Shown piece by piece: positions 5,605 through 60,296 of a stretch of 64,000 nt of DNA. The translations under genes and the position numbers were made by a program. The DNA is taken from positions 3,410,001 to 3,474,000 of the forward strand of contig NZ_LT576451.1 in the NCBI RefSeq assembly GCF_900086645.1, in the 5' to 3' direction. Origin of the DNA: Curtobacterium sp. 9128. Its GTDB lineage: Bacteria; Actinomycetota; Actinomycetes; Actinomycetales; Microbacteriaceae. Each line of letters opens with the position of its first letter. Position 1 is the stretch's first letter. The notes beneath the pieces were generated by a model that was not told where the DNA came from, did not search any database, and saw nothing but the letters and a program-made list of their open reading frames with translations.

Positions 5605-6587
5605 GCACGACCGAGCCCACGGCGGTGGACCCGGTCGACCAGGCGACCGCAGCGGACCTCGCGATCCGCACCACGGGTCTCCAGAAGGTCTTCCGCAAGC
5701 AGCGTGCGGTCGACGGCATCGACCTCGCCGTCCCGCGGGGATCCGTGTTCGGGTTCCTCGGGCCGAACGGATCCGGCAAGACGACCACCATCCGGATGCT
5801 CCTCGGGCTGTCGTCCGCGACCGCGGGGAGCATCGAGGTCCTCGGCGAACCGATGCCCCGTGCGTTGCACAGCGTGCTGCCGCGCGTCGGCGCGCTCGTC
5901 GAGGGACCGGCGTTCTACCCGTACCTGTCGGGCCGGGCCAATCTCAGCCGCTTCGACGCCGCCGACCCGACGTCCGACCCGCGCACCCGCAAGGCCCGCG
6001 TCGCCGGCGCACTCGACCGCGTCGGGTTGTCGCACGCCGCGGACAAGAAGGCGCACGCCTACTCACTCGGCATGAAGCAGCGGCTGGGGCTGGCGAACGC
6101 GCTGCTCTCGCCCCGTGAACTCCTGGTGCTCGACGAACCGACGAACGGCCTCGACCCGCAGGGCACGCGAGAGGTCCGGAACCTCATCCGTTCCCTGGCG
6201 GACGACGGCACGACGGTGTTCGTGTCGAGTCACCTGCTGGCCGAGATCGAGCAGGTCTGCACGCACGCCGGGGTGATGCGCACCGGCAAGCTCGTGGCGC
6301 AGGGCACCCTCGACGACCTCCGCTCCGCCGGCGCCCGCACGGTGACCGTCCGCACGCCGGACCTGGGTCAGGCGGGGGCGGTGCTCACCCGGCTCGGGCT
6401 CACCCCGCGGCACGAGGGCGGAGCAGACGTCCTCGTCGCCGACCTGCCACACGAGGTCCTGCCGGAGACGATCGCGACCGAACTCGTCCGTGCCGATGTC
6501 CGGATCCGCGGCCTCGCGGTCGGTGGCGGCACGCTCGAGGACCTCTTCGTCGCGCTCACCGGGGAGGGCTTCGATGTCGCAGCCTGA
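5601..6587 (+). CDS. ABC transporter ATP-binding protein
   Basis: The 328-residue nucleotide-binding domain shows Walker A GPNGSGKTTT near residue 55, the signature YSLGMKQRLG, and Walker B LLVLDEP followed by a D-loop and switch histidine (SSHLLAE). A C-terminal extension of about 90 residues is typical of ABC-2-type exporters. GTG at 5601 overlaps the stop of the LolA-like gene, which fixes the start and implies coupling. It should energise the permease encoded immediately downstream. Confidence 0.93.
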   Translation: MSTTEPTAVDPVDQATAADLAIRTTGLQKVFRKQRAVDGIDLAVPRGSVFGFLGPNGSGKTTTIRMLLGLSSATAGSIEVLGEPMPRALHSVLPRVGALVEGPAFYPYLSGRANLSRFDAADPTSDPRTRKARVAGALDRVGLSHAADKKAHAYSLGMKQRLGLANALLSPRELLVLDEPTNGLDPQGTREVRNLIRSLADDGTTVFVSSHLLAEIEQVCTHAGVMRTGKLVAQGTLDDLRSAGARTVTVRTPDLGQAGAVLTRLGLTPRHEGGADVLVADLPHEVLPETIATELVRADVRIRGLAVGGGTLEDLFVALTGEGFDVAA

Positions 6588-50932: not shown

Positions 50933-51598
50933 TCAGCCGACGGTGACGGGAGCCGCAGGTGGCTTCGTGCGCTGCCGCATCCAGACGAAGAAGCCGGTCA
51001 GGGTGAAGACGCCGTAGAAGACGTACATCAGCCCGGACGCGTAGTACCCGGCGGAGAACAGCAGCGGGACGCCCACCAGGTCCACGGCGACCCAGATGAG
51101 CCAGAACTCGACCCAGCCCTTCGCCATGCCGTAGGTCGCGAGCAGGGACCCGACGAAGATCCAGGCATCGCTCCACACCGGCTCGTACGACCCCAGGGCG
51201 CGGAAGACCGGCGTCAGCACGAGCGTCCCGCCGACCATGCCGACGACGAGCAGTCCACGGGTCCGCCACGACGCCCACTTCGGGTCGATGACGGTCGTCG
51301 ACTCGGCGGGGCGATGGGTCCAGCGGTACCAGCCGTAGACGCTGACGATGATGAACATCACCTGGCGTCCGGCCTGGCCGAGCAGGTTGACCGGGTTCGG
51401 GGTGTCGAAGAGCGCACCCATGAAGACCGTGAAGAGCAGGACGTTGCCGACGATGCCGACGGGCCACGCCCACACCTTGCGGCGCATGCCGCCGAGGGCG
51501 CTGAGCAGCCCGAAGACGTTGCCGATCACCTCGCGCCAGAGCACGGTCTGGTCTCCGACGACGATCTGCGCGTCGAACAGCCAGCGCACGATGCCCAT
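50933..51598 (-). CDS. pnuC: Nicotinamide riboside transporter PnuC
   Basis: The 221-residue PnuC-type membrane facilitator has seven predicted helices. Family features include a WREVIGNVFGLLSALGGMRRKVWAWPVGIVGN first repeat and YGWYRWTH in the middle. It admits nicotinamide riboside or a related vitamin precursor, trapped by phosphorylation inside. ATG 51598 follows GAGGAGGGCCC; upstream starts lack a ribosome site. PnuC paralogues can carry thiamine or riboflavin instead, and no riboswitch or biosynthetic neighbour settles the substrate. Confidence 0.88.
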   Translation of the reverse strand: MGIVRWLFDAQIVVGDQTVLWREVIGNVFGLLSALGGMRRKVWAWPVGIVGNVLLFTVFMGALFDTPNPVNLLGQAGRQVMFIIVSVYGWYRWTHRPAESTTVIDPKWASWRTRGLLVVGMVGGTLVLTPVFRALGSYEPVWSDAWIFVGSLLATYGMAKGWVEFWLIWVAVDLVGVPLLFSAGYYASGLMYVFYGVFTLTGFFVWMRQRTKPPAAPVTVG

Positions 51599-51971
51599 GG
51601 GCCCTCCTCGTTTCCGGTCCGTGCAACCGTATTGGGGCCGGGCGCATTCCTGTGCTTGTCGTCCGTGATCGGGGTACAAACAGTGTCCGCTGTCTCGGGG
51701 ACAAAAATGGCCCCCGGATTGGGTGCATTCAGACGCATGATTCCTCTTGTCCGCACTTTGGGGGACGGGTAGTTTCGATACCGGAACGAATCCTGCCCGC
51801 CCAGGTCGTCAGCAGTCGCTCACGACCCCGGAGCCCGGCGATCCGCTCTCGGCACAGGTCAGCCGCGGCCCCCGACCCCCGGGGCCGATGACACCGTCCT
51901 GCCGGCGCGCCAACCCGAACCCGCGTGCCGGTGGCCTTCCGCGCCCCTGTGTGCGCAGAAACGGACTCCTC
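51599..51971 (+). promoter_or_regulatory. 373-base intergenic region with paired 19-bp repeats before the SipW-type cluster
   Basis: The gap between pnuC and the secreted-protein cluster is less GC-rich than its surroundings and contains two similar 19-mers, TGTCCGCTGTCTCGGGGAC (51684-51702) and TGTCCGCACTTTGGGGGAC (51748-51766). They are 15/19 identical, 64 bases apart, and each ends in a GTCC/GGAC dyad. A weaker third copy may lie at 51669-51687. They are placed as regulator-binding sites would be. The last 150 bases before the first start codon look like a long leader with no structure I can name. Confidence 0.6.
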
Positions 51972-52526
51972 ATGCACAAGATCGTCACCGGTGCCATCGC
52001 CGGCGCCGCCGGCGTCGCGCTCCTCCTCGGCGGAGCGGGCACCTTCGCCCTCTGGAACGCCAGCGCCTCCACCGCCGCCAGCGCTGTCAGCTCGGGCACG
52101 CTCACGCTCAGCGCGGCGAACGACGGCGTCTGGACCGACATCACCAACGGACGCTCGACGACCATCAACCCCGCGAACGTCCTCATGGTGCCCGGCAACA
52201 AGTACCAGTTCACGCAGACGCTGAACATCGGCGCGACCGGCCAGGACCTCAAGGCCAACCTGACCTACGCGAGCCAGAGCATCACGGGCGACTCGGCCCT
52301 GGTCGCCGCGACCACGAAGACGCTCGCCGTGACCTCGACGAGCGCGTCGGTCGTGCAGTCGACCTCGAATGCGAACACCTTCGTGGTGTCGCCGTCGAGC
52401 ACCACCTCCCCCGTCAAGGTCGTCTTCACGATCGAGCTGCCGTCCTCGGCGACGACGGGCCAGAACGGCACCGTGAACGTCGGTGCGCTCGCCTTCACGC
52501 TGACGCAGACCGCGATCGGCTCCTGA
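51972..52526 (+). CDS. SipW-dependent-type secreted protein (TasA/camelysin-like signal)
   Basis: The 184-residue product starts with the alternate signal peptide of SipW substrates (VTGAIAGAAGVALLLGGAGTFALWNASAS). The hydrophobic core ends in GTFALWNAS, which resembles the GTFAYFSD-type end of TasA-family signals. The mature part of about 150 residues is Thr/Ser/Ala-rich and beta-prone with no cysteine or enzyme motif. A signal peptidase of matching type is encoded three genes downstream. An extracellular fibre or surface-layer component is inferred. Confidence 0.82.
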   Translation: MHKIVTGAIAGAAGVALLLGGAGTFALWNASASTAASAVSSGTLTLSAANDGVWTDITNGRSTTINPANVLMVPGNKYQFTQTLNIGATGQDLKANLTYASQSITGDSALVAATTKTLAVTSTSASVVQSTSNANTFVVSPSSTTSPVKVVFTIELPSSATTGQNGTVNVGALAFTLTQTAIGS

Positions 52527-52594
52527 TCCGCGGCGTGGTCGGCCCCTGATCCGCCGACCACGCCGCTCCCTCCACGACCAGCGGGGAGACGCGC

Positions 52595-53194
52595 ATGACG
52601 AACGCACCGACGGGACGCCACCGTGCCCCGCGCGCTCGCCTGCGCTTCCACGCCTGGGCATGGCTCGCCTCCCTCGTCGTGGCGGTCGCCGTGGCGACGA
52701 CGCTGCTCGGCACCGGCGGCACCTACGCCCTCTGGAACGCCTCGGCGAGCACGAACGCATCGAGCGTCAAGTCCGGCACCGCCACCGTCACGGTCGGTGC
52801 GCTCAGCCCGATGAACACCTCGGTGCTCGCGCCCGGTCGCAGCACGACCGGCACGTTCACCGTGAAGAACACCGGATCGGTGCCGCTCTCGATCCGCGTC
52901 GCGACGACCGCCACCAAGGTCTCGTACGCGAGCGCGTCCGACGCCACGGTCCTCGGCGCGCAGACGCTCCGGCTGGCCTCGGTGAACACCACAGCCGACT
53001 GCCGCGGCGGTCTGTCCGGCGCGAGCGGCCCGATCGCCACCTTCGACACCGGGAGCGGCTACTACACCCTGCCCGTCGGAGCGACCGGCATCGCCTGCAT
53101 CCAGCTCGGCCTCGGCTCCGACGCACCGCAGTCTGTCGCCGGAGCGGTGACGGACTTCACGCTCACCGTCACGGGAACGCAGGTGGCACCGTGA
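52595..53194 (+). CDS. SipW-dependent-type secreted protein
   Basis: The 199-residue protein has an Arg-rich N-terminus (GRHRAPRARLRF) followed by the alternate signal LASLVVAVAVATTLLGTGG and TYALWNASAS, closely matching the preceding gene's signal end. The mature domain is beta-rich (TGTFTVKNTGSVPLSIRVATT, a NEAT/TasA-like strand pattern). It has two cysteines (TTADCRGG and GIACIQL) that may form a disulfide. Its stop overlaps the next start (GTGA), so the cluster is translated together. Confidence 0.82.
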   Translation: MTNAPTGRHRAPRARLRFHAWAWLASLVVAVAVATTLLGTGGTYALWNASASTNASSVKSGTATVTVGALSPMNTSVLAPGRSTTGTFTVKNTGSVPLSIRVATTATKVSYASASDATVLGAQTLRLASVNTTADCRGGLSGASGPIATFDTGSGYYTLPVGATGIACIQLGLGSDAPQSVAGAVTDFTLTVTGTQVAP

Positions 53195-54084
53195 GCCGCC
53201 GGCTCCGCGTGGTGCTCGCTGCGCTGCTCGCCGTCGTGTTCGTCGTCGGTGGCTCGACCGCCGCCTGGGCACTCTGGACCACCAGCGGGACCACGTCGTC
53301 GAGCACGACGATCGGCAAGATGTCCGCGTCGATCAGCGGCACGAGCGACATGACCACGACGTTCTCGTCGACGGTCACCTCGGTGACCAAGCCGGTCACG
53401 CTCACGAACTCGGGATCGATCGCCGGGACGACCTCCACGACGGTGTCCGTCGTCGCCGGGAGCTCGACCGCGCTGGCGCAGGCGATCTCCGTCGTCGCGT
53501 GGCCGGTCGCGTCGACGACGGCGTGCACCGCGTCCACCGCGGTGGGCACGGGATCGGTGAGCGGCACGTGGGCGTCCCTGCCGAGCATGACCTCGGACCT
53601 CGCCGCCGGCGCCGCAGCCGTGTGGTGCGTCCGGAGCACACCGACGTCGTCCGCTCCCGCATCGACCACGACGAACGTGAACATCGCGCTGACGGTCGTC
53701 GCGGGGACGTGGACGTCCGCCCCGGTCCAGGGCGGCTTCTACATGAACACCTCGGCCGCTTCGACGGCCTCCCCCGCCCTCACCTGCACGGACCACAGCG
53801 GGAACTACGTCGACGTCCGGTGGCCGGCGTCGTCGCGTCCGACGGACACCTCCTACGCAGCCTTCGTGAAGGACACCCAGGTCGGACAGAAGGCACAGGA
53901 CTACTCGGGGTTCATCACGATCGCGCCGTCGGACGTCCCGTCGAGTGTCGCCACGAGCGGCACGCAGACCGTCGTCGTCAAGGTGCTCGACAGCGCGGGG
54001 AAGCCGACGAGCACCGTCGCCGGGAGCGGCTCCGTGACGCTCTTCACCCAGAACGACGGGCCGGCGATCCGATGCGGCGCCTGA
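53191..54084 (+). CDS. SipW-dependent-type secreted protein, long form
   Basis: The 297-residue protein starts at GTG 53191, overlapping the previous stop. The signal (LRVVLAALLAVVFVVGGSTAAWALWTTSG) has the same ALW end as the two upstream proteins. The mature part has a first beta domain with TVTSVTKPVTLTNSGSIAGTTSTTVSV strands. A second begins near residue 190 (FYMNTSAASTASPALTCTDHSGNYVDVRW) and resembles an Ig/fibronectin-like module. Four cysteines are present. It overlaps the signal peptidase gene by 13 bases. A surface or fibre subunit is inferred. Confidence 0.8.
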   Translation: MSRRLRVVLAALLAVVFVVGGSTAAWALWTTSGTTSSSTTIGKMSASISGTSDMTTTFSSTVTSVTKPVTLTNSGSIAGTTSTTVSVVAGSSTALAQAISVVAWPVASTTACTASTAVGTGSVSGTWASLPSMTSDLAAGAAAVWCVRSTPTSSAPASTTTNVNIALTVVAGTWTSAPVQGGFYMNTSAASTASPALTCTDHSGNYVDVRWPASSRPTDTSYAAFVKDTQVGQKAQDYSGFITIAPSDVPSSVATSGTQTVVVKVLDSAGKPTSTVAGSGSVTLFTQNDGPAIRCGA

Positions 54085-54662
54085 ACACGGCGCGGGAGCG
54101 CACCGGATGGCGAGCGGTCCTGCACGCCGTCGCGCTCGGCCTCAGCACCGGGATGCTCGTCATCGTGGCGGGACTCGCCGTCGTCCTCATCGTCATCCCG
54201 AAGGCGACGGGCTCGACCCCGCTCACGGTCCTGACCCAGTCGATGGAACCGACGCTGCCGCCCGGGACGCTCCTCGTCGTCGAGCCCACCCCGCTCGAGG
54301 ACATCCGGATCGGCGACGTCGTCACGTACCAGATCGTCTCCGGGCAGCCGGCCGTGATCAGCCACCGCGTGGTCGCCGTCGAGTCGTCCTCCGACGGTGC
54401 CCGCACGTTCGTGCTCAAGGGCGACAACAACGCGGAGCCGGACCCCTCGCCGGTGACCGCCGCCCAGGTCCGCGGTGTCGTCTGGTACAGCATCCCCGAG
54501 GTCGGGTACGTCAACCAGTTGGTCAACGGGTCCCGTGGCTGGCTGATCCCCGTCGTCGCTGGCATCCTGCTGGCCTACAGCGCGGCCATGATCACCATCG
54601 GGGTGACGTCATCGGTCCGCCGCCGACGTCGATCGCGCGGAGGTCGTGGGCGCCACGTCTAG
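54072..54662 (+). CDS. Signal peptidase I, SipW/ER type
   Basis: The 196-residue protease has an N-terminal helix (ALGLSTGMLVIVAGLAVVLIVIP), the catalytic serine in LTQSMEPTLPPGTLLVV (S57), and histidine in VISHRVVAVE (H98) in place of the lysine of ordinary bacterial type I signal peptidases. A C-terminal helix with a basic tail follows. This Ser/His ER-type (SipW) enzyme removes the alternate signals of TasA-like proteins. The gene overlaps its presumed substrate genes, so it is a dedicated processing enzyme. Confidence 0.92.
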   Translation: MRRLNTARERTGWRAVLHAVALGLSTGMLVIVAGLAVVLIVIPKATGSTPLTVLTQSMEPTLPPGTLLVVEPTPLEDIRIGDVVTYQIVSGQPAVISHRVVAVESSSDGARTFVLKGDNNAEPDPSPVTAAQVRGVVWYSIPEVGYVNQLVNGSRGWLIPVVAGILLAYSAAMITIGVTSSVRRRRRSRGGRGRHV

Positions 54663-54673
54663 GCTCGGGTGAC

Positions 54674-55201
54674 GTGACGGACGGAGTGATGCGCGCACGC
54701 GAACTGCTCGACGAGGCCGCACGACGCCTCCGCGACGCGGACGTGCCGGACGAGGCGCTCGGCGAGTACGTCGAGCCGAAGGCGGTGCTCGGGATCCGCC
54801 GTGAACCGACGATGCGTCCGCTCGGACGGGTGTGGCGAGTGGGGGCGCTGCTCATCGGGTCGTCGCTCGAGACCGGTGGCCGGGTGTGGGCGACGGGGAC
54901 GATCACCCGGGTCACCGAGCCCGGCCGGTCCCAGTTCCAGTCGGTGTCGGCCGAGGTCCGCCGGGCGTACCGGGCTGCGGCCGCGCGCGGGCACTTCCAC
55001 GCGGGCGACACCGTCAACCACGGCGCGGAGCCGATCCCGCTCGACGAGCACCTGATCGGTGCCGACGGCGCGTTGTTCGTGCAGGACGACGAGCCCCTCG
55101 TCCGCTGGTCGCCGGCAGCCGACACGGCCGTGCCACTCGCCGAGTACCTCGCCGACCGGGTCGGGCTGCTCGTCGATCCGCCAGCAGGCGCGACGGACTG
55201 A
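54674..55201 (+). CDS. Conserved hypothetical protein
   Basis: The product of about 175 residues is soluble, without signal or membrane segments. A helical N-terminus (MRARELLDEAARRLRDADVPDEALGEYV) precedes a mixed domain containing RVWRVGALLIGSSLETGGRVWATGTITRV and ending with LAEYLADRVGLLVDPP. GTG 54674 or ATG 54689 could start it. It follows the signal peptidase gene by 11 bases but seems unrelated to secretion. I do not recognise it. Confidence 0.7.
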   Translation: MTDGVMRARELLDEAARRLRDADVPDEALGEYVEPKAVLGIRREPTMRPLGRVWRVGALLIGSSLETGGRVWATGTITRVTEPGRSQFQSVSAEVRRAYRAAAARGHFHAGDTVNHGAEPIPLDEHLIGADGALFVQDDEPLVRWSPAADTAVPLAEYLADRVGLLVDPPAGATD

Positions 55202-55237
55202 CCCCGGGCGGTCACCGGGCACCGATAGGGTCGGCTC

Positions 55238-56554
55238 GTGCCGATCAACGACGAATTCGACGCCCGCTTCGACCTGCGGGAGTTCACCCCTGCCACCGAC
55301 GACTCCGGCGCGCCCGACGAGCGCACCGCGGACTGGATGCGCTCCGTGGGCATGGGCTTCCACGAGGCGGACCCGTCGCCGGAGACCGCCGCGCGCATGG
55401 CGTCCCACTTCATCGCCGACGAGGAGACGTTCCTCGGCGTGTACGTCCGGGAGCCCTTCCCCGGGTCCGTGGACGAGACCTGGCCGGCCGGCACCTTCAC
55501 GTGGTTCCGGAAGGCGCTCTCGTGGGGCGACGGCAGCACCGTCGACACGCAGGCGATCTCCGCGGTGACCGTGCGGCCCACCGAACGCCGACGCGGGATC
55601 CTCCGCGCGATGATGACCCACGCCCTCCGCCGCGGAGTCGAGGAGGGCTACGCGATGGCGTCGCTCACCGCCTCTGAGGGGACGATCTACCGGCGCTTCG
55701 GCTTCGGCTGCGCCATCCGTGAGCGCGCCGTCAGCGTCCGACGCAACCGGGCGCTCCCGTTCCTCGTGCCGACCACGGGGACCGTGTCCGTCGTGCCGCT
55801 CTCGTGGCTCGCGGACGGTGTCGGTCAGGACGTCTTCGCGCGCTTCGACGCCCGGACGCCCGGCTCGATGGTGCGCAACACGGGGACCTGGCCGGTCGTC
55901 TTCGGCGAGCTGACCGGGGACGGCGAGAAGGCGAAGGACGTCAGGGCTGCCGTGCACCGGGCGGACGGGTCCGACGACGTCGACGGGTACGTCACCTGGC
56001 GCGTGAAGGAATCCGGTAAGGACACCGCGGTCGAGATCGTCGACCTGGTGTACGCGACCGACGAGGCCTACCTGTCGCTCTGGGAGTTCCTGCTCTCGAT
56101 CGACCTCAACGACGTCGTGAAGTACAACCGGTCGCGGCTCGACGACCCGATCGTCGCAGCACTCGGGGACAACCGGGCGTACGACGTCGACCACGAGGAA
56201 GACCACGTCTGGCTCCGTGTCCTCGACGTCGCCGCGTCCCTGACGACCCGGCCGTACGCTGCCGACGGCTCGGTCACGCTCGCGGTCACCGACTCGCTCG
56301 GGTTCGCGGCGGGGACGTACCGGCTCGACGTGTCCGGTGGGGTCGGGACCGTGACGCGGCTTTCCGCCACCGCTGAGCCCGACGTCGACGTCGCGCTCGA
56401 CGTGGCCGACCTCGGGGCGCTGCTCATCGGGTCGGTGGACCCGGTGACGCTCGCAGCCGCCGGGCTCCTGCGCGCGTCGGACCCGGCGGTGCCGGTGCGG
56501 CTCCGTGCGATGCTCCTGCCGCCGCGCACCCCCCACGGCATCACGTACTTCTGA
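55238..56554 (+). CDS. Eis-like GNAT N-acetyltransferase
   Basis: The 438-residue protein has the three-part Eis architecture: two GNAT domains and a C-terminal SCP2-like domain. The acetyl-CoA loop is RPTERRRGILRAMMTHALRRG near residue 110. The tyrosine in GTIYRRFGFG matches the Eis catalytic tyrosine region, and the chain ends in phenylalanine (ITYF) as Eis proteins do. Eis enzymes acetylate amines of peptides or aminoglycosides in the cytoplasm; the native substrate here is unknown. GTG 55238 is the start. Confidence 0.9.
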   Translation: MPINDEFDARFDLREFTPATDDSGAPDERTADWMRSVGMGFHEADPSPETAARMASHFIADEETFLGVYVREPFPGSVDETWPAGTFTWFRKALSWGDGSTVDTQAISAVTVRPTERRRGILRAMMTHALRRGVEEGYAMASLTASEGTIYRRFGFGCAIRERAVSVRRNRALPFLVPTTGTVSVVPLSWLADGVGQDVFARFDARTPGSMVRNTGTWPVVFGELTGDGEKAKDVRAAVHRADGSDDVDGYVTWRVKESGKDTAVEIVDLVYATDEAYLSLWEFLLSIDLNDVVKYNRSRLDDPIVAALGDNRAYDVDHEEDHVWLRVLDVAASLTTRPYAADGSVTLAVTDSLGFAAGTYRLDVSGGVGTVTRLSATAEPDVDVALDVADLGALLIGSVDPVTLAAAGLLRASDPAVPVRLRAMLLPPRTPHGITYF

Positions 56555-56686: not shown

Positions 56687-58234
56687 TCACTGGGCGAGGA
56701 TGGCCGGGCTCGTCCCCGCCTTCATGCCCACGGGGAACGCCGTCGCGGCGTTGTCGTTGGTGACCGTCCACAGGGCATCCGTGTTCGTCTCGACGGCCAC
56801 GACGTACCCACTGCCGACCGCGGCGATCGACGGGCTGGTGCCCGCCTCCATGCCGATGTCGAACGCGGTCGCCGCCTTCCCGTTCGTGATCGTCCAGAGC
56901 TTCCCGGTGTTCGTCTGCACCGCGATGACGTAGCCGCCACTGGAGATCGGCAGGATCGCCGGGCTCGTGCCCGTCTTCATGCCGACGCCGAACGACGTCG
57001 CCGCCTTGGTGTTCGTCACGCTCCACAGATCACCGGTGTTGGTCTGTGCTGCGATGACGTAGCCGCCGTTGCTGGTCGCCGTGATCGCCGGGCTGGTGCC
57101 CGCCATCATGCCGATGCCGAACGACGTCGCCGCGTTCGTGTTCGTCACGCTCCACAGGTCACCCGTGGTGGTCTGCACCGCCACCACGTAGCCGCTCCCG
57201 ACCGCGGCGATGGACGGGCTCGTCCCGGCCTTCATGCCGATGTCGAACGCGGTCGCTGCCTTGGTGTTCGTGATCGTCCAGAGCTTGCCCGTGTTCGTCT
57301 GGACCGCGACGACGTACCCGCCACCAGCGGTCGAGATGATCGACGGGCTCGTCCCGGCCTTCATCCCGACGGGGAACGAGGTCGCTGCGCCGTCCGAGGT
57401 GATCGTCCACAGACTGCCGCCCTGGGCCTGGAACGCACTGACGTACTTGCCACCGGGTAGCGCCGCGATCGCCGGGCTCGTGCCGGCTGCGACGCCGACG
57501 TCGTAGGCGGTCGCGGCCTTCTTCGCCGTGATGCTCCACAGCTTGCCCGTGTTGACCTGGGCCGCGGTCACGTAGGACGAGTTCGTCACCGTCCCGCCGC
57601 CTGACCCCACGCCGGTCAGCGAACCGGTCGGGCGCCCGACGACGTCGAGGAGCTCCTCACCGGGCTCCGACCAGAGCGTCTGTTCCTTCACGCCTTCACC
57701 GGGGGCGGCCGCCGCCACCATGTACCCGCCACCGAGGTAGATCCCGTCGTGGAGGAAGTTCCCGCTCGTCGAGCCGTTGCTCGTCCAGAACAGGATGTCT
57801 CCGGGCTGCGCGTTCGACCGCGACACCATGTGACTCTTCAGCGCGTTGTACTCGTCACCGACGACGGGCCGCGACGCGCCGCCCGACAGGTCGATGCCGG
57901 CCTGCAGGTACGCCTTCCAGACGAGTCCTGAGCAGTCCCACGCGTCCGGCCCGTTGCCGCCGAGCGCGTAGTACGTGTTCGGGTTCTTTCCGCCGTTGCT
58001 CGTGCTCCACATGCTCTCGGCGTAGGCGATGGCGCTGTTCGCCTGTGCGGACGGGCCTCCGCCGGTGTTGAGCCCTGGCTGCCCGGCGAGCGCGGGAGCT
58101 GCGGTCCCGATCGTGGCGACCACGGCGATCGCGGCGACCGCGACCGTGATGAACGTGTTCCTGGTCCGGGTACGGACCGGCCGCGACGTGGCGTCGCGGC
58201 CCCCCTGTGTGATGTTCACGATCGAACTGTTCAC
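56687..58234 (-). CDS. Secreted NlpC/P60 cell-wall hydrolase with seven propeller-like repeats
   Basis: About 510 residues. After a signal peptide (TFITVAVAAIAVVATIGTAAPALA) comes an NlpC/P60 domain with catalytic cysteine in AWDCSGLVWKAYL near residue 100 and histidine in FLHDGIYLGGGYMVAAA. These enzymes cut peptide bonds in peptidoglycan stems. The C-terminal 300 residues are seven repeats of about 42 residues (GYVVAVQTNTGKLWTIT / KAATAFDIGMKAGTSPSI), a number expected for one closed seven-bladed beta-propeller, possibly binding wall glycans. The start is uncertain (GTG 58234 or 58219; neither has an ideal ribosome site). Confidence 0.87.
   Translation of the reverse strand: MNSSIVNITQGGRDATSRPVRTRTRNTFITVAVAAIAVVATIGTAAPALAGQPGLNTGGGPSAQANSAIAYAESMWSTSNGGKNPNTYYALGGNGPDAWDCSGLVWKAYLQAGIDLSGGASRPVVGDEYNALKSHMVSRSNAQPGDILFWTSNGSTSGNFLHDGIYLGGGYMVAAAAPGEGVKEQTLWSEPGEELLDVVGRPTGSLTGVGSGGGTVTNSSYVTAAQVNTGKLWSITAKKAATAYDVGVAAGTSPAIAALPGGKYVSAFQAQGGSLWTITSDGAATSFPVGMKAGTSPSIISTAGGGYVVAVQTNTGKLWTITNTKAATAFDIGMKAGTSPSIAAVGSGYVVAVQTTTGDLWSVTNTNAATSFGIGMMAGTSPAITATSNGGYVIAAQTNTGDLWSVTNTKAATSFGVGMKTGTSPAILPISSGGYVIAVQTNTGKLWTITNGKAATAFDIGMEAGTSPSIAAVGSGYVVAVETNTDALWTVTNDNAATAFPVGMKAGTSPAILAQ
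56690..57580 (-). repeat. Seven tandem 127-bp coding repeats
   Basis: The 3' part of the NlpC/P60 gene consists of seven in-frame units of about 126-129 bases, each encoding one GYVxAxQTNTGxLW ... AATxFxxGMxAGTSPxI module. Several neighbouring units are near-identical in DNA as well as protein, which suggests recent duplication or gene conversion and could allow copy-number change by slippage or recombination. Confidence 0.88.
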
Positions 58235-58362
58235 CCGCCTCGAAACGGGCGACAAGTCCTCCGTTCGGCGGACTCCGACGACGATCGTGATGCTGGTGCG
58301 GCGCGGCCGTGCGAACGTGTACGGAGTCTCAGCGAGGACGCCACGAACGGCGCCGCCCGTGA

Positions 58363-59361
58363 CTACGCCCGGCGCCGCACCCGCGGGTCCACGAACGCGT
58401 AGACCACGTCGACGATGACGTTCGCCGTCACCACGAGGAACGCCGAGAACAGCGTGAACCCGACGACCACCTGCAGGTCGAGCGTGTGCACCGCGTCGAT
58501 GAGCAGCGCACCGAGCCCCTGCATCGAGAAGACCTTCTCGGTGATGACCGCACCGCCGAGCAGCGAGCCGAGGTCGAGACCGAACAGTGTCACCACGGGC
58601 AGGATCGCGGTGCGCAGCCCGTGCCGCACGACGACCTGACGTTCCCGGATGCCCTTCGCGCGGGCCGTCCGGACGAAGTCCTGCGACATCGACTCGAGCA
58701 TCTCGCCCCGCGTGAGCCTGGCGTAGATCGCCGCGCTGATGAACGCGAGCACGCACCACGGCAGTACCAGGTGCGTGAACCACCCCACCGGATCGTCGGT
58801 GAACGCCACGTAGCCGCTCGTCGGCAGGACCCCGAGGACGAACCCGAACAGCAGGATCGCCAGCAGGCCGACCAGGTACGACGGTGCGGACACCCCCGCG
58901 ACGGCGATCCCCATGACCGTGCGGTCCAGGGCGGATCCGCGGCGGAGCGCCGAGACCGCTCCCCCGGCGACCCCCGCGACGAGCCACAGCACCGCGGCAC
59001 CGACGGCGATCGACGCGGTGACGGGCAGGCGCGTCACGATGAGCGACGTCACGCTGTCGTGGAGCTGGAACGAGTACCCGAAGCAGGGTGCCGCACAGTG
59101 GATCACCGAGGCACCGGTGCCGAACGTGCGCCCGGTGAAGATGCCGCCGAGGTACGCCAGGAACTGTGCGATCCACGGCTTGTCGGTCCCGAGGAACGCC
59201 TGCACCTCGCGCAGACGGTCGGGCGTGCAGGGCTTGTCGCAGATCGCGCGTGCCGGGTTCGTCGGCAGCAGCATGAACAGCGCGTAGGTCACCGCGGCGA
59301 CGACGAGCAGCACCACGACGGCGCCGAGCACCCGGAAGAGGACGAAGCGGAAGGTGGTCAT
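58363..59361 (-). CDS. Peptide ABC transporter permease (DppB type)
   Basis: The 332-residue permease has six helices. The N-terminal LLPTNPARAICDKPCTPDRLREVQAFLG segment is typical of DppB/OppB, and the EAA-like loop FVRTARAKGIRERQVVVRHGLRTAILPV fits. ATG 59361 overlaps the DppC stop by four bases. It is the last gene of a four-gene peptide importer operon read leftwards. Confidence 0.93.
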   Translation of the reverse strand: MTTFRFVLFRVLGAVVVLLVVAAVTYALFMLLPTNPARAICDKPCTPDRLREVQAFLGTDKPWIAQFLAYLGGIFTGRTFGTGASVIHCAAPCFGYSFQLHDSVTSLIVTRLPVTASIAVGAAVLWLVAGVAGGAVSALRRGSALDRTVMGIAVAGVSAPSYLVGLLAILLFGFVLGVLPTSGYVAFTDDPVGWFTHLVLPWCVLAFISAAIYARLTRGEMLESMSQDFVRTARAKGIRERQVVVRHGLRTAILPVVTLFGLDLGSLLGGAVITEKVFSMQGLGALLIDAVHTLDLQVVVGFTLFSAFLVVTANVIVDVVYAFVDPRVRRRA

Positions 59362-60296
59362 CGCGTGCCTCCCCGCGGGTCGAGGGCGTCACGGAGCGCG
59401 TCGCCGAGGACGTTGAACGCCAGGGTGATGAGGAACAGTGCGGCACCGGGGAACACGAGGTACATCGGGTCGGTCTGCACCCATCCGATCGCGTCGCCGA
59501 TGCTGCGCCCCCACGACGGCGTCGGCGGGGTGACCCCGACGGCGAGGAAGGACAGCGCTGCCTCCGCACCGATCATCGAGGGGATCGAGATCGTCGCGTA
59601 GACCGTGATCGTCGCGGCGAGGTTCGGCAGGAGCTGCGTCCGGATCACGTGCCAGCGGCCGGCCCCGAGCGCGGTGGACGCGACGACGTAGTTGCGGGTG
59701 CGGAGCGACATCGTCTGACCGCGGATCACACGCGCGACGGACGGCCAGCCGAAGAACCCGATGACGAGCACGACGAGCACTGGTTTCGGGAACGAGGTCG
59801 GCACGATCGCGGTGAGGGCGATCATGAAGACCAGGGACGGGAACCCGAACATGACGTCGACCACGCGGGAGAGCACCCGGTCGTACCAGCCGCCGAAGAA
59901 CCCGGTCGTGACCCCGACGAGCACCCCGATGACCAGCGACATGGCCGTCGCTGCGAGCCCGATCCCGAGCGAGGTCCGCGCACCGTACGTCACGATCGCG
60001 AACAGGTCCCGCCCGGTCAACGGCTCGACGCCGAACCAGTGCGTGCCGCTCACGCCGCCGAGCGCCCCGCGGGGCGCACCGAACGAGTTGAGCGCATTGA
60101 TGTCGTACGAGTACGGGTCCTGCCCGCTGATCGCGGCGATCACCGGAGCGAACACGGCGACGAGGAGGAACACCACGATGACGATCGCCGATGCGACGGC
60201 CCAGCGGTCCCGGCGGACACGACGGACCACCGCACGGAACCCGGTCGAACGGGCGCCGGACGCGGCGACGGGCCGGTCGACGACGTTCGCGCTCAT
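59358..60296 (-). CDS. Peptide ABC transporter permease (DppC type)
   Basis: The 312-residue permease has a cytoplasmic N-terminus, six helices, the DppC extracytoplasmic segment (THWFGVEPLTGRDLFAIVTYGARTSL) and the loop YVVASTALGAGRWHVIRTQLLPNL. ATG 60296 overlaps the ATPase stop; longer frames have no domain. It forms the channel with the DppB-type partner encoded next. Confidence 0.93.
   Translation of the reverse strand: MSANVVDRPVAASGARSTGFRAVVRRVRRDRWAVASAIVIVVFLLVAVFAPVIAAISGQDPYSYDINALNSFGAPRGALGGVSGTHWFGVEPLTGRDLFAIVTYGARTSLGIGLAATAMSLVIGVLVGVTTGFFGGWYDRVLSRVVDVMFGFPSLVFMIALTAIVPTSFPKPVLVVLVIGFFGWPSVARVIRGQTMSLRTRNYVVASTALGAGRWHVIRTQLLPNLAATITVYATISIPSMIGAEAALSFLAVGVTPPTPSWGRSIGDAIGWVQTDPMYLVFPGAALFLITLAFNVLGDALRDALDPRGGTR

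Follow-up and report, generated by a model that had tools for sequence, protein, structure and literature searches.

The locus described here lies in a 64,000-nucleotide stretch of DNA (the window), which corresponds to positions 3410001-3474000 of the one-contig, 3.94 Mb genome of Curtobacterium sp. 9128. It consists of four open reading frames, A, B, C and D, all encoded on the plus strand within window positions 51972-54662. Its features, in window coordinates, are as follows:

51972..52526, plus strand: gene A (184 aa), a SipW-type signal and a beta-sandwich, likely the main fibre subunit (TIGR04089, structure model, hhalign alignment to TasA)
52050..52109, plus strand: A residues 27-46, predicted mature N-terminal donor segment, LWNASASTAASAVSSGTLTL (alignment to the TasA N-terminus)
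52191..52196, plus strand: A P74-G75, counterpart of the TasA proline box P62-G63 (invariant in 45 of 45; aligned to TasA P62)
52530..52566, plus strand: RNA hairpin between A and B, with a 14-bp stem, the loop CCCTGATCC and no T tract (fold z -4.25; covariation; model search)
52595..53194, plus strand: gene B (199 aa), camelysin/TasA family, with one conserved Cys pair (PF12389, TIGR04088)
52730..52789, plus strand: B residues 46-65, predicted donor segment (aligned to the TasA N-terminus)
52832..52837, plus strand: B P80-G81, proline-box counterpart (invariant in 46 of 46; aligned to TasA P62-G63)
53191..54084, plus strand: gene C (297 aa), two predicted Ig-like domains, likely the terminal (TapA-like) subunit (structure model, homology to B, matches to lectin-bearing C proteins)
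53272..53331, plus strand: C residues 28-47, predicted donor segment (W29 in 30 of 31; aligned with the B N-terminus)
54072..54662, plus strand: gene D (196 aa), SipW-like ER-type signal peptidase (TIGR02228)
54240..54242, plus strand: D catalytic Ser57 (36 of 36)
54363..54365, plus strand: D catalytic His98 (36 of 36)

Genes B and C overlap by 4 nt and genes C and D by 13 nt, with C beginning at a GTG (53191) and D at an ATG (54072), and A ends 68 nt ahead of B. Among neighbouring gene pairs in related operons, the 4-nt B-C overlap recurs in 46 of 64, a C-D overlap of 4 or 13 nt in 34 of 64 and an A-B gap of 38-186 nt in 60 of 67, and the order A-B-C-D is kept in all 20 regions examined from the genus Curtobacterium. 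An initial, sequence-only reading of this DNA had proposed that the cluster is co-translated. This suits the overlapping genes B, C and D, but A, held apart by 68 nt and a 14-bp hairpin, is evidently not translationally coupled. An Rfam scan of 51400-55300 returned no credible riboswitch or known RNA, with two chance matches below gathering, and no sigma-70 promoter consensus was found, a consensus that is uninformative in a high-GC actinobacterium. In two genus regions (L057 in G007 and L060 in G019) the complete A-B-C-D cluster is tandemly duplicated, with proteins 51-87% identical to those of the window. In several other genera (L120-L134 and others) an extra gene of about 230-370 aa stands between C and D, its product bearing what looks like a conventional signal as well as a VPG...TFWVKN-like stretch; operons of the Curtobacterium type leave no space for such a gene. 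Farther along the window, on the minus strand at 56687-59569, lies a frame that we read as a secreted protein with an NlpC/P60-like domain (AWDCSGLVWKAY), after which come numerous similar repeats, each about 30-40 residues long (TNTGKLWTITNTKAATAFDIGMKAGTSPSI).

Conservation was assessed in protein sets dereplicated at 85% identity, each comprising the window protein plus homologues: 44 of 45 for A (set A5; L147:10651 left out), 45 of 49 for B (A6; L099, L140 and two L145 rows left out), 30 of 54 for C (A7; long, remote or truncated proteins left out) and 35 of 55 for D (A8). Thirteen long C proteins were aligned separately (A10). The N-termini of A, B and C each contain a hydrophobic stretch that runs into TFALWNAS (A), TYALWNAS (B) or AWALWTTS (C). 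The corresponding pattern [AGST][FYW]A[LF][WF] has four matches in the 397 open frames of at least 80 aa in the window, three of which are A, B and C, which bears out the initial proposal of three secreted proteins with matching alternate signals. That proposal had placed the end of the signals at LWNAS. The motif is real, but in the alignment with TasA, whose solved mature chain begins at residue 28, cleavage is expected before LWN or LWT (after A26, A45 and A27 in A, B and C, respectively), and LWNAS would accordingly open the mature protein instead of closing the signal. By the curated SipW-dependent signal model TIGR04088 (cut-off 19), B scores above threshold at 20.2, A scores 18.4 in the protein scan, just below it, and 21.8 in the genome scan, and C gives no match. 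A further match to the SipW-signal model at 2523807 of the same genome was set aside, as we read it as a QcrC-like cytochrome c protein.

The enzyme presumed to process these signals is D, which passes the archaeal/ER-type signal peptidase family TIGR02228 (NCBIfam) with 84.7 bits against a cut-off of 51.85, and in which S57, H98 and D118 are all invariant in 36 of 36 homologues; its assignment as an ER-type Ser/His peptidase (S57, H98) thus holds. It falls short of the Bacillus SipW equivalog NF046067, scoring 73 against a cut-off of 190. The same genome encodes other SipW-like peptidases. In one region (L003, 2825764-2829216) the frame at 1486-2901 runs from a second such peptidase in-frame into a Laminin_G_3 domain (PF13385, 70.9 bits), and between the two we read a second hydrophobic stretch and a SipW-like site; this peptidase looks as if it were fused to its own substrate, and upstream of it lies a 207-aa secreted protein of the SYAAFSAT type. 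A third pair (L002, 1261071-1264568; frames 719-1318 and 1441-2631) consists of a 199-aa SYSAFSAT protein and a peptidase with a second hydrophobic stretch and a secreted-looking tail at its C-terminus.

Regarding the substrates, A is a full-length member of TIGR04089 (exp_by_SipW_III), matching positions 1-179 of 179 with 144.2 bits against a cut-off of 60 (NCBIfam). B belongs to the camelysin/TasA family PF12389 (Pfam), with 30.2 bits against a cut-off of 22.5, and so contradicts the earlier view that TasA cannot be recognised in the mature proteins; it remains far from the curated TasA equivalog NF046066 (17.5 against a cut-off of 450). PF12389 scores 14.3 on A, below its cut-off, and at E 0.01 or better it is matched by 34 of 46 proteins in the B set and by 8 of 45 in the A set. 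Profile comparison with TasA (a query identical to 8aur over 28-261) aligns both A (E 6.5e-6, probability 85%) and B (E 1.7e-5, probability 79%) across the signal, the mature N-terminus with its donor segment and the Pro-Gly box, that is, over the N-terminal third alone and including a signal peptide that may carry much of the score. A and B are homologous to each other (96%, E 1e-8). Searched against 177635 PDB sequences, the B profile places TasA (5of1, 8aur) and the archaeal AbpX (9rhp, 9sj2) as its top four matches, each weak (E 0.06-0.3), and A finds one weak, unrelated match.

The kinship extends to the residues through which TasA protomers meet, namely F29, P62 and Q232 (PMC10151520). 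Their counterparts are W28, P74 and Q179 in A and W47, P80 and Q196 in B, where the equivalence of the glutamines rests on their position in the last strand, outside the part aligned by hhalign. W28, P74 and Q179 are each present in 45 of 45 A proteins, as are L27, W28, N29 and G42 of the donor segment, and mature A is free of cysteine in all 45. In B, W47 is found in 31 of 46, P80-G81 in 46 of 46 and Q196 in 44 of 46, together with one invariant Cys pair.

Structure prediction, which the initial reading had suggested as a check of the fold, gave for A (from 45 sequences) a beta-sandwich with an unordered N-terminus, with block-mean pLDDT of 88-96 over residues 41-180 and below 50 for residues 1-30, but no Foldseek match to this model reaches E 0.001. 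The matches are beta-sandwiches, among them the TasA fibre and two donor-strand pilins, FimG and CfaB, at E 0.04-0.17. By VIA-align the TasA fibre superposes with Z 5.6 and rmsd 3.9 over 135 residues, on a level with many unrelated Ig-like proteins, and the same holds for archaeal cannula proteins; the best Z of any match is 6.8.

C finds no family in NCBIfam or Pfam, TapA families included, at E 1 or better, none of the 31 C proteins in the set matches anything, a sequence search of the PDB gave no credible match, and hhalign yields no significant alignment of C with TasA (E 0.086) or with A. Domain 1 of C is nevertheless homologous to B (98%, E 1.2e-13, over 147 columns), and hence C joins the family through B rather than directly. 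In its donor segment W29 is kept in 30 of 31 sequences; 2 of the 31 have Pro-Gly in the box region, and 3 have a Gln in the final strand of domain 1. Two Cys pairs are invariant. The predicted structure (mean pLDDT 86) comprises two Ig-like domains, with matches that are significant but unspecific: the Vpr fibril form (E 3.2e-6), pilus chaperones and integrins. The structural matches listed for C do not include TapA, an absence that excludes nothing. In TapA itself the Ig fold is complete and contains a disulfide, and the N-terminus serves as donor (PMC10151520). With a donor segment, two predicted Ig-like domains and no Pro-Gly/Gln acceptor, C likewise looks like a donor-only end piece that may work as TapA does. 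From the interface residues and the Cys pattern of the three proteins we propose that A and B both donate and accept a strand and that C only donates.

Longer C proteins occupy the same place in the operon in other Microbacteriaceae, where C-type domains are followed by fibronectin type III (PF00041) and ricin-type lectin domains; PF14200, PF00652 and PF00041 are each matched at E 0.001 by 11 of the 13 members of A10. When ten long C proteins were scanned singly, eight (L151, L153, L131, L125, L150, L138, L121 and L139) passed the ricin cut-off, L144 scored below it and L137 gave no match. Both long C proteins from Naasia, L125 and L121, additionally carry LamG and PKD domains. The window C aligns with A10 over both of its domains (99.9%, E 3.8e-33, columns 1-269 to 1-265), which makes it the same protein minus the lectin part. 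Residues 591-638 of the L121 C protein also score above the cut-off for PF03498 (CDtoxinA); we rejected a toxin reading, as this match overlaps the ricin-type region (PF14200, 102.8 bits) and to our reading reflects a shared beta-trefoil fold.

The hairpin between A and B is conserved by compensatory change. In 20 aligned gaps, 10 of the 14 pairs change on both sides, giving 54 cells, compared with 18.9 after shuffling and no more than 8 in slid controls; the rows were picked by their loop motif, so that the invariance of the loop is partly selection, and the stem was not selected for. The alignment holds 20 of the 23 loop matches: L092 is identical to L090, L096 was left out and L111 has a mismatch and no stem. 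In 40 genomes of the genus, a search with the hairpin model found 17 matches of at least 49.8 bits in 17 genomes, all between A and B, a result that speaks to specificity only, since the training sequences came from these same organisms or close relatives; the other 23 genomes have weaker matches or none. Across the 60 A-B gaps, 8 are too short (38-49 nt) for such a hairpin with its flanks, and 25 of the 52 longer ones fold with z below -2. A conserved, covarying hairpin thus sets A off from the closely spaced genes B, C and D, an arrangement that suggests a larger output of A than of the other three, as expected of a main subunit. Codon bias points the same way, with A above B in 50 of 63 operons, a bias so weak that we rejected it as proof of high A expression. 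From the hairpin, the gap and this weak bias, A is likely the main subunit.

The operon itself, the families of A, B and D, the residues of the interface and the hairpin can all be read from the sequence. On them we build the explanation that we consider probable: that the operon makes an extracellular donor-strand-exchange fibre of the TasA/camelysin class from SipW-processed subunits, built at the cell surface much as Bacillus builds its TasA biofilm fibres. A, B and C would be exported by Sec and cut by the SipW-like D just before LWN/LWT, which would free an N-terminal strand. A, as the main subunit, and B, as the second, would both lend this strand to the following subunit and receive another in their own Pro-Gly groove, and a chain would grow by donor-strand exchange. 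C would donate its strand, and with a complete fold and no acceptor box it would sit at one end of the fibre, as its start, its cap or the carrier of a sticking domain. The hairpin behind A would keep A in excess over the other three products. The initial reading had likened the cluster to an amyloid operon. We dropped this framing: the fibres of TasA are donor-strand-exchanged and not cross-beta (PMC9674648), which makes the amyloid label out of date even for TasA, and the fibre proposed here is probably not a cross-beta amyloid either.

Of the alternatives, a variant in which the same fibre has B as its main subunit and A as an accessory seems somewhat unlikely: B is the better match to the TasA family, but A comes first, is set apart by the hairpin and is the most conserved of A, B and C, and solitary copies of A exist in some genomes. 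Such copies were seen in L117, L118 and L119 (about 6001-6546), where no B, C or D was found within about 6 kb and where, in L118, the neighbours judged by eye are PrfC-like and glycosyltransferase-like frames; unpaired A matches also occur in genomes of the genus, for example at G013:C3:60940. We think it distinctly unlikely that A, B and C are SipW-processed but stay monomeric, as a loose coat or soluble matrix of Ig-like surface proteins. Ig-like folds are indeed common in secreted monomers and the structural matches of A and C are unspecific, but the donor-segment and proline-box residues, which in TasA form the contacts between protomers, are fully conserved in A and almost fully in B, and two TasA-type subunits are encoded together with an acceptor-less partner in 20 of 20 regions. 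That the three proteins are camelysin-type (M73) metalloendopeptidases, as the name that Pfam gives to PF12389 would imply, is very improbable, the name being inherited from camelysin and TasA of the same family being a structural fibre subunit (PMC9674648). Least credible is the S-layer system that had been raised at the outset, to which three secreted beta-rich proteins might belong: no S-layer family scores above its cut-off in Pfam or NCBIfam, and the match of B to the PACE-CTERM putative S-layer model is sub-threshold (10.5 against 110 bits).

In the 40 genus genomes TIGR04089 scores above its cut-off in 29, B is found in 29 (one weakly, E 4.4e-4) and C in 28; across the phylum TIGR04089 is above its cut-off in 9 of 398 genomes. 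Named relatives include Clavibacter, Frigoribacterium, Frondihabitans, Naasia, Cryobacterium, Leifsonia and Arachnia. The bearer of the window is an actinobacterium of a soil and plant type, and the host genera Curtobacterium, Clavibacter and Frigoribacterium are plant-associated. TasA-like systems are phylogenetically widespread according to a review (PMC10903470), and TasA-class fibres have been characterised in Bacillus and in archaea. The open-licence PMC literature yielded no description of an actinobacterial SipW-TasA fibre. The label "uncharacterised" given to this system is apt in that sense, but NCBI curates families for A (TIGR04089) and for the signal (TIGR04088). The kind is known, a well-conserved, probable fibre operon of the TasA class, and its actinobacterial variant is apparently undescribed. 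Two points seem new: a putative end piece that only donates and that in relatives extends into lectin domains, and a covarying hairpin behind the probable main subunit. The locus offers a compact, conserved actinobacterial version with predictions at the level of single residues; it would show how TasA-class fibres begin or acquire a tip when no TapA homologue is present, and its lectin-bearing C proteins give a direct route to the question of what such fibres bind. As a tentative generalisation, possible although we would not bet on it, TasA-class donor-strand fibres of Microbacteriaceae may end in a donate-only TasA-like domain fused to Ig/FnIII domains (and in many genera to ricin-type lectin, LamG and PKD domains), which would act as a sugar-binding tip or wall anchor in monoderms and be a FimH-type counterpart of separate origin, with the subunit ratio set by the conserved RNA hairpin after the main subunit gene.

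The parallel to Bacillus subtilis tapA-sipW-tasA that had been drawn initially proves closer than claimed, since A and B are detectably related to TasA and camelysin and C has TapA-like features. Both systems have SipW-type signals and a dedicated Ser/His signal peptidase, a TasA-family subunit with a donor segment and proline box, and an end piece with an Ig fold and a conserved Cys pair. The Curtobacterium operon differs in having two TasA-like subunits, much diverged, and a two-domain end piece, in its A-B-C-D order with the peptidase last and a hairpin after the first gene, and in that C is not TapA by any model used. The Bacillus cereus cluster sipW-calY1-bc_1280-calY2 (PMC10151520) likewise combines two camelysin-family genes with one SipW peptidase, but in a different order, and no C-like gene is named for it. 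The archaeal bundling pili AbpA/AbpX are touched by the weak matches of the B profile to AbpX (9rhp, 9sj2), although their host is archaeal, and TIGR04089, of which A is a full-length member, is a family defined by sequence only. Finally, chaperone-usher pili with a lectin tip (FimH) share with the proposed fibre its mode of working, through a donor-strand fibre, a multi-domain end subunit and, in relatives of C, a lectin, whereas the Curtobacterium cluster has neither a chaperone nor an usher gene and no sequence relation to them.
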